A stretch of DNA of 58,213 nt from Nanobdellati archaeon (lineage in GTDB: Archaea > B1Sed10-29 > JAGVWA01). Below, piece by piece: positions 26,386 to 34,899 of this stretch. Numbering within the stretch: the stretch's first letter is position 1; every line of letters begins with the position of its first letter. The position numbers were made by a program, and so were the translations under genes. The stretch covers positions 1 to 58,213 of the forward strand of contig JAGVWA010000003.1 of assembly GCA_018304505.1 (NCBI GenBank). The letters run 5' to 3'. The notes under the pieces are model-generated. The model was not told the DNA's origin, ran no database searches, and saw only the letters and a list, made by a program, of their open reading frames with translations.

Positions 26386-27990
26386 ATGCTGGGGGATGAA
26401 TCAATGAGCGCAGACGCGGTAATACACAGGCTACAGGAGAAAAACTACATTCTGACAAGCGAAGCCGTCAAATACATCCTTGATTCCATGAACCCGGAGG
26501 CACTCGAAAACAACGTTCTGACGCACTTCAAGGGCAACGTGTTCATTACGCCAAAAGAACTCAAAATACAAACGCCCAAATCAACAGCGCCACAACCAAT
26601 AACACTGCAACCAACAACACCACAACCAACAGCACCACAACCAACAACACCACAACCAACGGCACTAGAACCAACAACGCCGCAAGTAATCATTGAAGGA
26701 ACCAGGTTCAAGCCGCTTGCAAAAGAATACCCAAAACAGATAAAGGTCAAGAAAAGCCTGGAACAGACAAAATCCATATCCACAGGCACTGTACAGGACT
26801 TCACAGACTACTTCCTAAACAGATACGAGCAACTTTCGGCATTCCTCAAAACCAGGGGCAAATCGACACACTTGCCGATTTCCGAGGCAAGGAAACGACA
26901 GTACCAGGAATGCAAAATCATCGGCATGGTCACGGAGAAAAAAACAACAAAGAACGGGCATAAGCTCATCCATGTTGAAGACCCCAGTGCCTCAGCGCTC
27001 GTTTTCATTGGCAAGGACAACGAGGCCCTGGGAAAAATGATGGACCACATCATCCTTGATGAAGTTATTGCCATTGAGGGCAAGCAATCCAAGGACCTGT
27101 TCATTGCAAACAGCATCTTCCAGCCGGACATGCCCCAACGAGACGTTAAGACAATAGAAGACGACATCGCGATTGCAATGCTTTCAGACATTCACATCGG
27201 CTCAAAACTTTTTATGGGGCAACAGTTCGAGCATTTTATCAAGACGCTGAGGGGTGAAATCGGGACTGAAAAACAGCAACAACTCCTTGGCAAAGTCAAG
27301 TACATAACGATATGCGGCGACGCGGTAGACGGCGTCGGAGTCTATCCAACACAGGAAACCGAACTGGCGATTACAGACATCTACGAGCAATACGACAAGC
27401 TGCACAGCTACATCGAGATGCTGCCTGACTACATCCACGTGGTCATCGTGCCAGGAAACCACGACACGGTCGTAAAAGTCGCAGACCCACAGCCGAGGAT
27501 TCCTGAAAAAGCCATGCCCAAGACCTACAAAATGAGCAACGTCACCCTAACGAGCTCTCCGGCAATCTTAGACATACACGGGGTCAACACGCTGCTCTAT
27601 CATGGCTTCGCATTTGATGATGTCATTGCAGACCTGCCTAGCGCATCTTACGCGAAATCAGAGTCCCCGATGACAGAAATGCTCAAACGCCGCCACTTAC
27701 ACCCAAGGTACGGCGGTAAACCGATTACGCCTGAGAAACATGACCACCTAGTAATAAGCGAATCCCCGGATCTGTTCCACGGCGGACACCTCCATAATAA
27801 CGGCTATGCGAACTACAAGGGCACGCTAGTCGTCAATTCCGGAACATGGCAATCAATAACAGAGTTCCAGGCCAAAATGGGGCACAAACCGACGCCCTGC
27901 ATTCTACCGATATTCGAAGCCAAGCACGGCAGGGTAAACGCAATGCACTTTGACAGGAAAGATTACTATGAATATGAAAGAGTACTATGA
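26386..27990 (+). CDS. polB: DNA polymerase D small subunit DP1
   Basis: OB fold plus phosphoesterase: LSDIHIGSKLF, CGDAVDGVGVYP, VPGNHDTV, GGHLHNNGY. Confidence 0.92.
   Translation: MLGDESMSADAVIHRLQEKNYILTSEAVKYILDSMNPEALENNVLTHFKGNVFITPKELKIQTPKSTAPQPITLQPTTPQPTAPQPTTPQPTALEPTTPQVIIEGTRFKPLAKEYPKQIKVKKSLEQTKSISTGTVQDFTDYFLNRYEQLSAFLKTRGKSTHLPISEARKRQYQECKIIGMVTEKKTTKNGHKLIHVEDPSASALVFIGKDNEALGKMMDHIILDEVIAIEGKQSKDLFIANSIFQPDMPQRDVKTIEDDIAIAMLSDIHIGSKLFMGQQFEHFIKTLRGEIGTEKQQQLLGKVKYITICGDAVDGVGVYPTQETELAITDIYEQYDKLHSYIEMLPDYIHVVIVPGNHDTVVKVADPQPRIPEKAMPKTYKMSNVTLTSSPAILDIHGVNTLLYHGFAFDDVIADLPSASYAKSESPMTEMLKRRHLHPRYGGKPITPEKHDHLVISESPDLFHGGHLHNNGYANYKGTLVVNSGTWQSITEFQAKMGHKPTPCILPIFEAKHGRVNAMHFDRKDYYEYERVL
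26575..26688 (+). repeat. In-frame low-complexity linker repeat (A/T-P-Q-P-T)n within DP1
   Basis: APQPITLQPTTPQPTAPQPTTPQPTALEPTTPQ. Confidence 0.85.
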
Positions 27991-30900
27991 GCACTTGCAG
28001 ATCAAGGCAGACGAGGCCTACGAAATTGCAGCCGGGGCGCGCTCACTTGGAAAAGACCCCATAATGAAAATCGAAGCGCCGCAAGCCAAGGACCTTGCAG
28101 ACCGAGTTGAAGGAATCAGCGGCCCTGTTGGTGTTTCAGCCAGGCTCAGGGAATTAATAGAGCAGATGGACAGGGAGGCCTCAACAAAGCTTATCATGCA
28201 GGAAATCATCGACGGGAAGTTCGGGAAATTAAATACAGAGCAAGAAAAAATCGAGCAGGCAGTGCGAACTGGACTGACGATTTTGACAGAAGCAATCGTT
28301 GTTGCGGGCACAGAAGGCATTGACAGAATCACCATTAATGAAAACCCGGACAAGTCAAAGTATCTGACAATGTACTTCGCAGGCCCAATCAGAAGCGCAG
28401 GCGGCGGCGGCCAAGCGCAAGCGGTGATACTATGCGACTATGCCAGAACCCTCATGAACATAGGCCCATACAAACCAACAAATGATGAGATCGAGCGGTG
28501 TGTAGAAGAAATGGGAATTTATCACAACGCGGTGTCCAGACTACAATACTTTCCGCCAGACGATGACACAAGATACATTCTAAAACACTGCCCAATCTGC
28601 ATAAGCGGGGACCAAACAACAGATGTTGAAGTGGCTGTAAACAAAAACATACCAAGGGTAGAGACAAACCGCATACGCGGGGGCATGTGCCTCGTTGTCG
28701 GCGAAGGAATAGCCCAAAAAGCGGCGAAGGAGGTCAAGTTCGCCAAAAAATTCGGGTTGGATTGGTCGTGGCTCGGGAAGCTCGTGAAAACCGTAAAGAA
28801 AGATGACGCGGACGAAAAAACCGAGGTCGAGATAAAGCCCCTGCCAAAATACCTCGACGACATTGTTGGCGGCCGCCCGATTTTCGCGTACCCGATGAGG
28901 AAAGGCGCCTTCCGGTTGCGATACGGCAGGGCACGCAACACGGGCATCGCGGCAAAGGCCATTCATCCGGCCACAATGATCCTGCTCGATGAGTTTCCAG
29001 CAGTCGGCACACAACTGCGCGTCGAGCGGCCGGGAAAGGGAACCGTGTGCTGCCCATGCGATTCGATAGAAGGCCCCATCGTGAAACTGAAAAACGGCAC
29101 GGTAGTCCGGGTAGAGAGTGCTGCAAAAGCAGAAGACATCAAACACGACATCGGCGAAATCCTGTTCCTCGGGGACATGCTAATAAGCTACGGCGATTTT
29201 TCAAAAGCAAACCACCCATTAGTACCGCCCGGTTTTTGCGAAGAATGGTGGAGCCTCATCCTGGAAAACAAGGACATCAAAGTCGGCGATGCGTACAAAA
29301 TAACTTCAGAGCAGGCACTCGAACTCTCGGAGAAACACAAAGTGCCCCTGCATCCGAAATACACGTACTACTACAATGACATAACAAGAGAAGAACTGAT
29401 AAAAATCATCATGTCCCTATCAGAGGCCACTATTGTGGAAAACAAAACCCTTGGTGGGGAGACAGCGCACATAATTGAAATGCCGCTGACGAAAGACAAA
29501 CGGATTCTCGAAATGCTCGGAATACTGCACAGGGTTGAGGAAGACCGAGTCATAATTCAAGACGCCCTGCCGCTAATCAGGACACTTGGCTTGCCAAACA
29601 AGGACATCGGTGAGAGCTTCGGTGAGGGGCAATCGGTGTTGCAGATCATCAATTCTATCGCGCCTTTCCCGATTTACGACAAATCAGGAACGTACATTGG
29701 CGCAAGAATGGGCCGGCCTGAAAAGGCAAAGGAAAGGGCAATGGCCCGCTCTCCGAACGGCCTGTTTCCAATTGGCGAATCGGGAGGCAGAATGACATTG
29801 GTTGACAAGGCGCGCGAGGCAAACAAAATCGAGATACAAAAAATCCGCTTGGTCTGCCCACAATGCAAACAGGAAAAGCTCAACTATACGTGTGAAAAAT
29901 GCGGGCAGAGAAACGTAATCATGAGATCCTGCGTCAAATGCGGAAAAAACACCATGAATGAGAAATGCGACCGCTGCAACAATTACACCTCCCCGTATCA
30001 TTCCACAACTGTTGACTTCAGGCAATTCATGAACGACACCGAGGCGCAGTTAAAAGAGCGCGCCCCGGATAAATTCAAGGCCATTGTTGGCACAATTAAC
30101 AAGGACAAGTACTTTGAGCCGATGGAAAAAGGCCTCCTTAGGGCGAAACACGGCGTGTACCCGTACCGCGACGGCACAATCCGATTCGACAGCACAGACA
30201 TGCCGCTGACTTACTTCAAGCCAAAGGAAATCGGCGTCAGCTTGTCAATGCTCAAAGACCTAGGATACGAAAAAGATTATCAAGGCAATGAAATCACAAG
30301 CAACACGCAGATATGCGAACTGAAACCACAGGACTTGCTGCTGTCAGAATTCGGCGTTGACTACATGCTTTCAGTCACGCGATTTCTTGATGACTTGCTG
30401 GAAAAGTTCTACGGTTTACCGAGGTACTACAACGCCACGAAACGTGAAGACCTGCTTGGGCACCTCGTAGTTGGTTTGGCGCCGCACATCTCAGCCGCGA
30501 CAATGGCGCGCATAATCGGCTTCACTAAAGCCCGCGTTGGATATGCACACCCGTATTTCCACTGCGCGAAGAGAAGAAATTGCTTCAGCGGTGACACAAA
30601 AACATTCCTTTGGGACGACAACAAAAAGAAAACCATCCGTGAACCAATCGGGGACATAGTTGATGATCTTGAAAAAAAATATCCGAACAACAAAAAACCG
30701 ATAGACGGCTTTGGCACTATAAAAATCGATAATCCATATAATTGGTATGCATACTCAATTGACAAGAATTCCGGGAAGTTTGTAAAAAAGAAGGTTAAGA
30801 CTTTCGTTAAAGGTAAACATCAAAACTGGGTCGCGTTAAAAACATCAACTGGAAAAGAAATGTGCGTCACGGCTGACCATGACATTTTAACAAATAGCGG

Positions 30901-31888
30901 CACTAACAGATTCTCCCATAAGAAAGCAGAAGACGTCAAGGTTGGAGAAAAGATCCCATATGCAACAAGGTTCCCTGGAACCAACCAACAAAACGTGAAC
31001 CAGGACTACACCTTCGATACCATTACAGAACTAAAAACAATAACGCAGGAAAAAAATTCTTACTGCCTCGATATAGATATCGACTCAGACGACCTGACAG
31101 AAAAAAATGTCTTGTGGGATAACCAACTAATCCAAATCAGGTGCGACTCCGACGAGGATGCGATAATGCTTTTACTCGACGTGCTTTTGAACTTCTCCAG
31201 GAAGTACCTGCCGGCGTCGCACGGCGGCACCATGGACTCGCCGCTGGTTGTCACGACAAAAATCAATCCGCAGGAAATCGACGATGAAGTTCACGAAATG
31301 GAAACCGTTTTCAGATTCCCGCTATCCTTCTACGAGGCCGCAGTGCAGAAAAAGAGCCCTGGGGAAGTTGACGTGGAGACCGTTGCTGACAGGCTTGGCA
31401 AAGATGAGCAATACGAAAACCTCGGATTCATGTTTGACTGCACAAGCATTGACGAGGGCCCCATCATTACACAGTACGCAAAGATCACTAAGATGGCGGA
31501 CAAGGTAAACCACCAGCTAGAACTGGGCAAGCGCATCAGGGCTGTTGACGAAAAGGACGTTGCCGAGCGCGTATTATCATCACACTTCCTAAGGGACATT
31601 TACGGAAACCTCAGGGCATTCGGGCAACAGATAATGCGCTGCGTTGACTGCAACGAGAAATACCGCAGGGTTCCGCTTGTTGGAAAATGCACGAAGTGCG
31701 GGGGCAAGCTGCTTTTGACAATAAACCGCGGCGGCATAGAAAAGTACTTGAAGATTTCGATGGACATCGCCAACAATTATGGCCTGAGCGATTACATGAA
31801 GCAGCGCCTAAGCCTGGTTAAAGAGGACATTGACACCATTTTCGAAAGTGAGGCGGTGAGGCAGAGTTCCTTAGCCGACTTTATCTAG
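27968..31888 (+). CDS. polC: DNA polymerase D large subunit DP2, intein-containing
   Basis: TMYFAGPIRSAGGGGQAQAVILCDYAR; Zn-finger CPQCKQEKLNYTCEKCGQ; HPYFHCAKRRN...CDSDEDAIMLLLDVLLNFSRKYLP; start overlaps the DP1 end. Confidence 0.95.
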   Translation: MNMKEYYEHLQIKADEAYEIAAGARSLGKDPIMKIEAPQAKDLADRVEGISGPVGVSARLRELIEQMDREASTKLIMQEIIDGKFGKLNTEQEKIEQAVRTGLTILTEAIVVAGTEGIDRITINENPDKSKYLTMYFAGPIRSAGGGGQAQAVILCDYARTLMNIGPYKPTNDEIERCVEEMGIYHNAVSRLQYFPPDDDTRYILKHCPICISGDQTTDVEVAVNKNIPRVETNRIRGGMCLVVGEGIAQKAAKEVKFAKKFGLDWSWLGKLVKTVKKDDADEKTEVEIKPLPKYLDDIVGGRPIFAYPMRKGAFRLRYGRARNTGIAAKAIHPATMILLDEFPAVGTQLRVERPGKGTVCCPCDSIEGPIVKLKNGTVVRVESAAKAEDIKHDIGEILFLGDMLISYGDFSKANHPLVPPGFCEEWWSLILENKDIKVGDAYKITSEQALELSEKHKVPLHPKYTYYYNDITREELIKIIMSLSEATIVENKTLGGETAHIIEMPLTKDKRILEMLGILHRVEEDRVIIQDALPLIRTLGLPNKDIGESFGEGQSVLQIINSIAPFPIYDKSGTYIGARMGRPEKAKERAMARSPNGLFPIGESGGRMTLVDKAREANKIEIQKIRLVCPQCKQEKLNYTCEKCGQRNVIMRSCVKCGKNTMNEKCDRCNNYTSPYHSTTVDFRQFMNDTEAQLKERAPDKFKAIVGTINKDKYFEPMEKGLLRAKHGVYPYRDGTIRFDSTDMPLTYFKPKEIGVSLSMLKDLGYEKDYQGNEITSNTQICELKPQDLLLSEFGVDYMLSVTRFLDDLLEKFYGLPRYYNATKREDLLGHLVVGLAPHISAATMARIIGFTKARVGYAHPYFHCAKRRNCFSGDTKTFLWDDNKKKTIREPIGDIVDDLEKKYPNNKKPIDGFGTIKIDNPYNWYAYSIDKNSGKFVKKKVKTFVKGKHQNWVALKTSTGKEMCVTADHDILTNSGTNRFSHKKAEDVKVGEKIPYATRFPGTNQQNVNQDYTFDTITELKTITQEKNSYCLDIDIDSDDLTEKNVLWDNQLIQIRCDSDEDAIMLLLDVLLNFSRKYLPASHGGTMDSPLVVTTKINPQEIDDEVHEMETVFRFPLSFYEAAVQKKSPGEVDVETVADRLGKDEQYENLGFMFDCTSIDEGPIITQYAKITKMADKVNHQLELGKRIRAVDEKDVAERVLSSHFLRDIYGNLRAFGQQIMRCVDCNEKYRRVPLVGKCTKCGGKLLLTINRGGIEKYLKISMDIANNYGLSDYMKQRLSLVKEDIDTIFESEAVRQSSLADFI
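30581..31141 (+). mobile_element. Mini-intein (187 aa, no homing endonuclease) in the DP2 catalytic region
   Basis: Block A CFSGDTKTFLWDD; block B GKEMCVTADHDILT; block F-like SYCLDIDIDSDDLTEKNVLWDNQLIQIR; C-extein CDSDED. Confidence 0.85.
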
Positions 31889-33693: not shown

Positions 33694-34899
33694 ATGGACG
33701 ATATTTTCGAATCTGAGCTTAAAAAGGCTACTGTTTTTCAGGACCGCAATGTATTGTCGCAGTCATACATCCCGGAGACCTTGCCTCATCGCGAGAAGGA
33801 AATCGAGCGAATGATGAAGACCCTGGCCCCAATGCTCAGCAAGAAGATAATCCACAACCTTTTCATTTATGGGAAAACCGGCACGGGGAAGTCCAGCAGC
33901 ACGCGGCACATCCTGAACCGCCTCGGGGACGTGAGGGAAAAATACGATGCGTCTGTCGATTTTATTTATGTAAATTGCCATAACTGCAACACGAAGTATC
34001 AGGTGATGCTGAAGTGCGCGGAGTACTGTGCCCCGGGCAAGCCGTTTATTGGGTATCCGTTTTCGCACCTGTTTGAAGAAGTGAAGAAGAAGGTCCAGGA
34101 CAATGACACAAGTTTCCTGATTGTTCTCGATGAGGTGGACAAGGTCAAGGACATCGACGAGTTAATGTACACGCTGACAAGGGCCAATGATGAATTAGAC
34201 CATGGCCGCATATCGCTGATAGGGATCACGAATTCTGTGGGATTTAAAGAACAGCTGGATCCGCGGTCTAAGTCAACGCTCTGCGAGGAGGAAATGGTTT
34301 TTCCGCCATACAACGCAACTGAACTTGAGAGCATTCTGCGCCAACGCGGAGAATTAGGCTTCAAGCAGGGGGCGATTGATGAGTCTGCAATCAACCTCGC
34401 GGCAGCACTGGCTGCCCAGGAATCAGGAGACGCAAGGTATGCCCTGAAGCTCATTCTCAAGGCAGGGCAGATCGCAGATGATCTGAAGGAAAAACGCGTT
34501 ACAGATTCGCATGTGCAAATTGCCTCAGAGGGTGTCGAGGAGGAAATTGTTTACGAAATCATCAACACGTTGCCTGAGCACCAAAAAATAGTGCTTTACG
34601 CCATCACGCTTTTGACAGAAGATGGCTCCCGGATGTCGAAACTTGACGGCTCCATGGATGAAGACGCGGTGCTTTATTCTGGGGAGGTGTACGACAAATA
34701 CCGCGGCTTGTGCAAGGTGTACGGGAAAAAAGCGAGAACGGCGCGCTGGTGCCGCGATTACTTGAACGACCTGGACATGATGGGCTTAATTACCACAAGC
34801 ATTTCTGGAAAAGGAATTCGCGGCAACACAACACTAATTCAGTTGGCATATCCGCAAGAAAAGGTAAAACGCGTTTTAGAGAAACACTTTAATGCGTAG
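33694..34899 (+). CDS. cdc6: Orc1/Cdc6 family replication initiator (copy 2)
   Basis: IPETLPHREKEIERM; YGKTGTGKSSSTRHIL; IVLDEVDKV. Confidence 0.95.
   Translation: MDDIFESELKKATVFQDRNVLSQSYIPETLPHREKEIERMMKTLAPMLSKKIIHNLFIYGKTGTGKSSSTRHILNRLGDVREKYDASVDFIYVNCHNCNTKYQVMLKCAEYCAPGKPFIGYPFSHLFEEVKKKVQDNDTSFLIVLDEVDKVKDIDELMYTLTRANDELDHGRISLIGITNSVGFKEQLDPRSKSTLCEEEMVFPPYNATELESILRQRGELGFKQGAIDESAINLAAALAAQESGDARYALKLILKAGQIADDLKEKRVTDSHVQIASEGVEEEIVYEIINTLPEHQKIVLYAITLLTEDGSRMSKLDGSMDEDAVLYSGEVYDKYRGLCKVYGKKARTARWCRDYLNDLDMMGLITTSISGKGIRGNTTLIQLAYPQEKVKRVLEKHFNA

Follow-up and report, generated by a model that had tools for sequence, protein, structure and literature searches.

A putative DP2 intein clade with arginine in place of the C-terminal asparagine or glutamine in DPANN-type archaea

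The third step of protein splicing is the cyclisation of a C-terminal Asn, for which reviews give Gln and Asp as the sole natural substitutes (PMC10663303, PMC4031507). The stretch of DNA analysed here (the window, 58,213 nucleotides of contig JAGVWA010000003.1 from a Nanobdellati archaeon, genome G000) carries a mini-intein that ends in Arg before the Cys at position +1, within the gene for DP2, the large subunit of DNA polymerase D (PolD). How could such an intein be released from a replicative polymerase? We compared the C-terminal residues of its relatives and found 21 further inteins at the same DP2 site that end in Arg. The best reading is that the window intein is probably not a decayed relic and belongs to a functional clade with Arg at the C-terminal cleavage step. 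The host gene and its parts are as follows.

27968 to 31888, + strand: DP2, large subunit of DNA polymerase D, intein-containing precursor of 1306 aa (Pfam and 6hms alignment).
27968 to 30580, + strand: N-extein, ending in ...HCAKRRN (aligns with the solved DP2 structure as far as the insert).
30581 to 31141, + strand: mini-intein of 187 aa without an endonuclease region (translation, Pfam, AlphaFold2 and Foldseek).
31142 to 31888, + strand: C-extein, starting with Cys+1-Asp-Ser-Asp-Glu-Asp, the DP2 catalytic loop (aligned to 6hms from Cys955 on).

The product of 27968-31888 matched the Pfam PolC_DP2_N, central and cat domains (E 1e-94 to 1e-125), and its best PDB match was 6hms, the DP2 of Pyrococcus abyssi (P. 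abyssi). The frame is free of interruptions, insert included. Both Cys872 and Cys1059 of the window DP2 align to Cys955 of 6hms, and the insert is therefore exactly residues 872-1058. The insertion point lies directly before Cys955, Asp956 and Asp958 (P. abyssi numbering). D956 and D958 are catalytic, and the polymerase needs both to be active; the same loop is already known to take up an intein in P. abyssi (PMC4996933). At this site intein-free DP2 usually reads RR[DN]-CDGD, in a loop that is otherwise nearly fixed. Since the insert breaks the catalytic loop beside D956/D958, and DP2 is present once in the window genome, polymerase activity should need removal of the intein.

The insert encodes 187 open residues, CFSGDTKTF...TADH...SYCLDI...KNVLWDNQLIQIR, and is followed by the Cys+1 codon tgc (31142-31144). 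Its key residues are listed below, with their occurrence among the 22 Arg-ended (Arg-type) inteins, window included.

30581 to 30607, + strand: block A with the Cys1 nucleophile, CFSGDTKTF (Cys1 in 22/22).
30869 to 30880, + strand: block B TxxH motif, TADH (TxxH in 22/22).
31058 to 31066, + strand: block F Ser-Tyr-Cys (SYCLDI), its Cys at position F:4 by alignment (22/22).
31103 to 31105, + strand: Lys175, where other inteins have the block F His (F:13; -13) (Lys/Arg in 22/22).
31115 to 31117, + strand: Trp179 (-9) (invariant, 22/22).
31133 to 31135, + strand: Gln185 (-3) (Asn in 19, Gln in 3).
31139 to 31141, + strand: Arg187, C-terminal intein residue, position G:7, codon agg (Arg in 22/22).

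The Pfam family Intein_splicing matched the insert with E 3e-7, and AlphaFold2, with an alignment of relatives as input, returned a Hint fold (predicted local distance difference test, pLDDT, 92; predicted template modelling score, pTM, 0.87). In Foldseek the model aligned to the Pho RadA intein (4e2u) with a template modelling (TM) score of 0.87 (by target) and to the Pab PolII intein (2lcj) with 0.76. The first-pass annotation had placed at 30581-31141 a mini-intein with blocks A and B, no endonuclease and a terminal Arg before Cys+1, and translation, Pfam and the 6hms alignment bear this out.

As in class 1 inteins, the insertion is in frame within a conserved host motif with the host intact on both sides, the Hint fold carries blocks A, B, F and G (block G by position, its usual residues missing), and the Cys1 nucleophile, TxxH and a Cys at +1 are present. 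Two features depart from class 1: the C-terminal residue is Arg in 22/22, not Asn, Gln or Asp, and Lys/Arg replaces the block F His (F:13) in 22/22, with the penultimate His also replaced. Class 3 inteins lack a nucleophile at position 1 and start from the block F Cys; here Cys1 occurs in 22/22, and the block F Cys is present too. The window intein has every feature of the Arg-type DP2 clade, namely Arg(-1), Trp(-9), Lys/Arg(-13), Asn/Gln(-3), the DP2 site and a place in a single clade.

The 22 inteins occupy one site and come from at least three archaeal phyla. G002, of the same order as the window, matches record PWFL01000023.1 from a Candidatus Diapherotrites metagenome-assembled genome (MAG) and has at this site a 511-residue intein with a LAGLIDADG-like motif, ending in NVLWGNQLFQIR before Cys. 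In another phylum, G078 has a mini-intein ending in IILWGNKLLQPR before Cys, and the intein of L074, from a Pacearchaeota MAG, ends in NVLWGEQVINTR, again before Cys.

Relatives were collected by a DNA pattern scan for Arg-Cys-Asp-Gly/Ser-Asp-Glu/Gln, which the usual intein-free RR[DN]-CDGD form of DP2 cannot match. In 371 genomes of the L074 phylum it gave 16 matches, of which 13 were DP2 inteins and 3 were due to chance; in the G078 phylum it found no Arg-ended case besides G078. The possible bias from selecting on Arg was addressed with a profile of N-terminal halves only (19 rows, 3 of them Asn/Gln-ended), which holds no C-terminal information, and with held-out members. In the same 371 genomes this profile gave 13 strong matches (157-204 bits), exactly the 13 Arg-ended inteins, with the next at 68 bits. 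In 200 genomes of the L074 order it gave 12 matches, and the six previously unseen among them all end in Arg (6/6).

Within the window phylum, 17 of 19 genomes had a DP2 match, and five of these 17 carry an insert at the site, which ends in Arg in two, in Gln in two and in Asn in one. A scan of 388 archaea for a VNR codon before CDGDE gave, in the DP2 loci that were read, only Gln or Arg there; it is blind to codons with C/T in third or T in first place, misses the window (tcc Ser) and yielded matches not all of which were read. No viral carriers were found in IMG/VR or phage records. No Arg-ended intein is reported in the open-access literature searched; closed-access work was outside the search, and an earlier notice is possible.

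The Arg-type inteins are diverse in sequence, with splicing-domain pairwise identity from 28% to 68%. Cys1, TxxH, Ser-Tyr-Cys, Lys/Arg(-13), Trp(-9), Asn/Gln(-3), Arg(-1) and Cys(+1) are nevertheless invariant in 22/22, and the penultimate residue varies freely (T, F, L, A, I or P). The codons for Arg(-1) are AGA (11), CGA (4), AGG (4), CGT (2) and CGG (1). Such varied codons, together with identity down to 28%, indicate that Arg is held at the protein level. A sequencing error at agg, which had been raised as a concern, is excluded by the 21 Arg-ended relatives and the five Arg codons among the 22.

Is the intein dead, and DP2 either non-functional or active while it still carries the insert or as separate fragments? 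The missing block F His, penultimate His and terminal Asn would fit this, as would the CDSDED loop of the window DP2 in place of CDGDED. We consider it very improbable, since Cys1, TxxH, the block F Cys and Cys+1 stand in open frames in 22/22 despite identity down to 28%, an endonuclease-size region is kept in 17/22 (many with LAGLIDADG-like motifs), and the site is the catalytic loop (PMC4996933) of a protein encoded once in G000. The suggestion of an inactive intein is thus disfavoured. A homing element lethal to the host polymerase would not spread or persist, so the intein probably works; judged from these sequence features, the window intein very probably splices, with excision and extein ligation. 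Within the Arg-type tree, endonuclease-free mini-inteins are scattered (L122 with 169 aa, L123, L117, L077 with 180 aa, and the window), which suggests that the endonuclease was lost repeatedly.

We then asked whether Arg stands where a cyclising residue belongs. In a tree built without the last six residues, the 16 Arg-type members included formed one clade with support 86/82, below the strict threshold; its sister group, with support 94/92, consists of the Asn/Gln-ended DP2 inteins of G146, G382 and G332. A first tree that included L043 and L095 had long branches (3.9 and 1.7) that split the clade, and it was rebuilt without both. From the F:13 place to the intein end there are 13 residues in both Arg-type and sister inteins (HNILLSNGLFTGQ against KNVLWGNQLFQIR), so that Arg stands at the cyclising position of the Asn/Gln-ended sisters. 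The splice point between WDN and Q, offered earlier, is out of register with that position, and position -7 is Glu in 15, Asn in 4 and Asp in 3, so that 18 of 22 have no Asn there.

Another candidate is position -3. If Asn/Gln(-3) cyclised, the intein would end two residues earlier, and xArg would be kept in the mature polymerase or trimmed later. The position is Asn (19) or Gln (3) in 22/22, precisely the residues capable of cyclisation. However, a variable dipeptide (IR, TR, FR, LR, PR or AR) would be left in a loop nearly fixed as RR[DN]-CDGD, the new +1 residue would mostly have no nucleophile, and the spacing from F:13 would be 11, against 12-13 in Asn/Gln-ended DP2 inteins. The invariance of Arg(-1) would also go unexplained, and we regard this route as unlikely.

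The surroundings of the terminal residue differ as well. The block F His and the penultimate His assist step 3 in other inteins, although the penultimate His is missing in about 5% of functional inteins (PMC4031507). All Gln-ended DP2 inteins read at this site, same-phylum ones included, have His at the -13 or -12 place, whereas the Arg-type has Lys/Arg, which indicates that the Arg-type lost both assisting histidines. Four clade-specific positions have arisen together. The window intein is a mini-intein of a distinct, conserved DPANN-type DP2 clade with an invariant Arg in place of the C-terminal Asn/Gln. Sequence, site, clade and invariance are shown directly and the fold is predicted, whereas the full reading set out below, in which the intein still splices and its release depends on this Arg, is an evenly balanced judgement.

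We propose that the intein would be removed at the bonds between Asn and Cys1 and between Arg and Cys+1. Cys1, aided by TxxH, would form a thioester, and Cys+1 would then accept the N-extein, as in class 1 inteins. The freeing step would rely on Arg instead of a cyclising Asn/Gln, with Lys/Arg in the former place of the block F His, Trp(-9) and Asn/Gln(-3) as a rebuilt C-terminal active site. In the simplest chemistry, the Arg N-epsilon would attack its own carbonyl to give a six-membered delta-lactam. Since N-epsilon is bonded to C-delta like the Gln side-chain N, the ring would equal in size the glutarimide of Gln-ended inteins. Lys/Arg(-13) and Trp(-9) could lower the Arg pKa, and Asn/Gln(-3), in an extended strand, would share a side with Arg(-1) and may position it. 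The delta-lactam is the most severe side reaction on incorporating activated Arg in peptide synthesis (PMC7352207); as activated Arg gives it readily, the earlier statement that Arg cannot cyclise was too strong. By this analogy we tentatively suggest a delta-lactam at Arg in step 3, and the sequence patterns leave it an even call whether Arg is the reacting residue or a helper.

Several points weigh against this proposal. The Arg delta-lactam is documented with activated carboxyl groups, not amide bonds, and the amide leaving group in an intein means that strong catalysis would be needed. Guanidine is protonated at neutral pH, which makes closure of the lactam a demanding reaction. A reacting Arg would not usually have a Lys/Arg beside it, as at F:13, though this residue could lower the pKa of the Arg, and Asn/Gln(-3), itself able to cyclise, might be the reacting group. 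All sequences come from assemblies, mostly metagenomic, and the six held-out members share an order with many training members, so they are not fully independent. In the window DP2, Ser replaces the conserved Gly of the CDGDED loop.

The same junctions could also be cut while Arg does not cyclise. Arg, Lys/Arg(F:13) and Asn/Gln(-3) would polarise the scissile carbonyl, and water, or the Cys+1 thiol through an N-to-S shift at the C-terminal junction, would cut, leaving a free C-terminal Arg. The co-conservation of Arg, Lys/Arg(-13) and Asn/Gln(-3) fits an electrophilic pocket no less than a nucleophile, guanidine reacts poorly as a nucleophile at neutral pH, and Cys+1 is invariant. On the other hand, all inteins described in the reviews resolve the branched intermediate by cyclising a side chain (PMC4031507, PMC10663303), and hydrolysis of an amide would have that of the branched thioester as a competing reaction. 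These non-cyclising routes (water, or the N-S shift on Cys+1) are possible, though doubtful in themselves, and we rate them nearly as likely as the lactam.

A host protease or another trans factor might instead cleave the Arg-Cys bond once the intein has formed the branched intermediate. Many proteases are specific for Arg at the site of cleavage, and the free penultimate residue would suit this. We find it quite improbable, as a dedicated factor would be required in hosts of several phyla and a newly arrived intein could not depend on one; no such factor was found, though no search was aimed at one.

Of the earlier options, a variant release mechanism is favoured: the conservation of Arg stands (22/22, including the 6/6 held-out members), while the chemistry is inferred. 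We lean towards a further intein class that uses Arg for C-terminal cleavage, either by closing a delta-lactam or by assisting a cleavage without cyclisation, and that persists as a mobile element in the DPANN replicative polymerase.

Among known systems, the Pab and Pho PolII (DP2) mini-inteins share with the window intein the site between RRN and CDGDED of the same gene, Cys1, Cys+1, the Hint fold and the absence of an endonuclease. They differ in ending in Gln, which gives a glutarimide, and in having the block F His (PMC8175363, PMC4031507), whereas the window intein has Arg at its end, Lys at the block F His position, Trp(-9) and Gln(-3). Nearest in the tree are the DP2 inteins of G146, G382 and G332 (L076, L078 and L079), with the same site, N-terminal layout, block F S/T-Y-C and 13-residue spacing; these end in TAN, TGQ and TSN, have the block F His in 2/3, and have Trp(-9) and Arg in none. 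Class 1 inteins that end in Gln or Asp, such as that of the CIV ribonucleotide reductase (RNR), are a precedent for replacement of the terminal Asn (PMC4031507), but their Gln/Asp are direct Asn analogues and Arg is not. Bacterial intein-like domains of type B likewise lack the His-Asn of block G. They cleave without coupled ligation (PMC4031507), whereas the Arg-type keeps Cys+1 and sits in an enzyme active site.

An invariant-Arg clade in the catalytic loop of a replicative polymerase would imply either a new side-chain cyclisation or a cyclisation-free release, and mini-inteins of 169-191 residues make both alternatives directly testable. If true, it would give intein tools a new chemistry for cleavage at the C-terminus. 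It would also mean that step 3 can be rebuilt in evolution, through loss of Gln/Asn and His and a joint gain of Arg, Lys/Arg, Trp and Asn/Gln.

We also noted variation in the DP2 loop itself. In the window DP2 (CDSDED), Ser (tcc, 31148-31150) takes the place where glycine sits between both catalytic aspartates, against CDGD in all other DP2 read in the comparison. In the L074 phylum the loop reads CDGDEA, not CDGDED, in carriers of both Arg-type and Gln-type inteins (L074, L117-L128 C-exteins). Gln-ended (L143, L144, L145, L147, L149, L154) and Arg-ended (L117-L128) inteins of one phylum are unlike families, which different species carry at the same DP2 site.

An organism-wide oddity was considered and rejected, as two other inteins of the window genome end in VHN before Ser. 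These ordinary ends belong to inteins in topoisomerase I-like and aRF1-like genes, read from translations (L017 on G000 contig C21 and L018 on G000 contig C3).

In the window, DP2 is preceded by a gene for a DP1-like exonuclease subunit (26386-27990; Pfam DNA_pol_E_B and Metallophos), whose end lies 23 bases within the DP2 frame, so that the PolD subunit genes form an overlapping pair. An Orc1/Cdc6 gene lies downstream of this pair (33694-34899).
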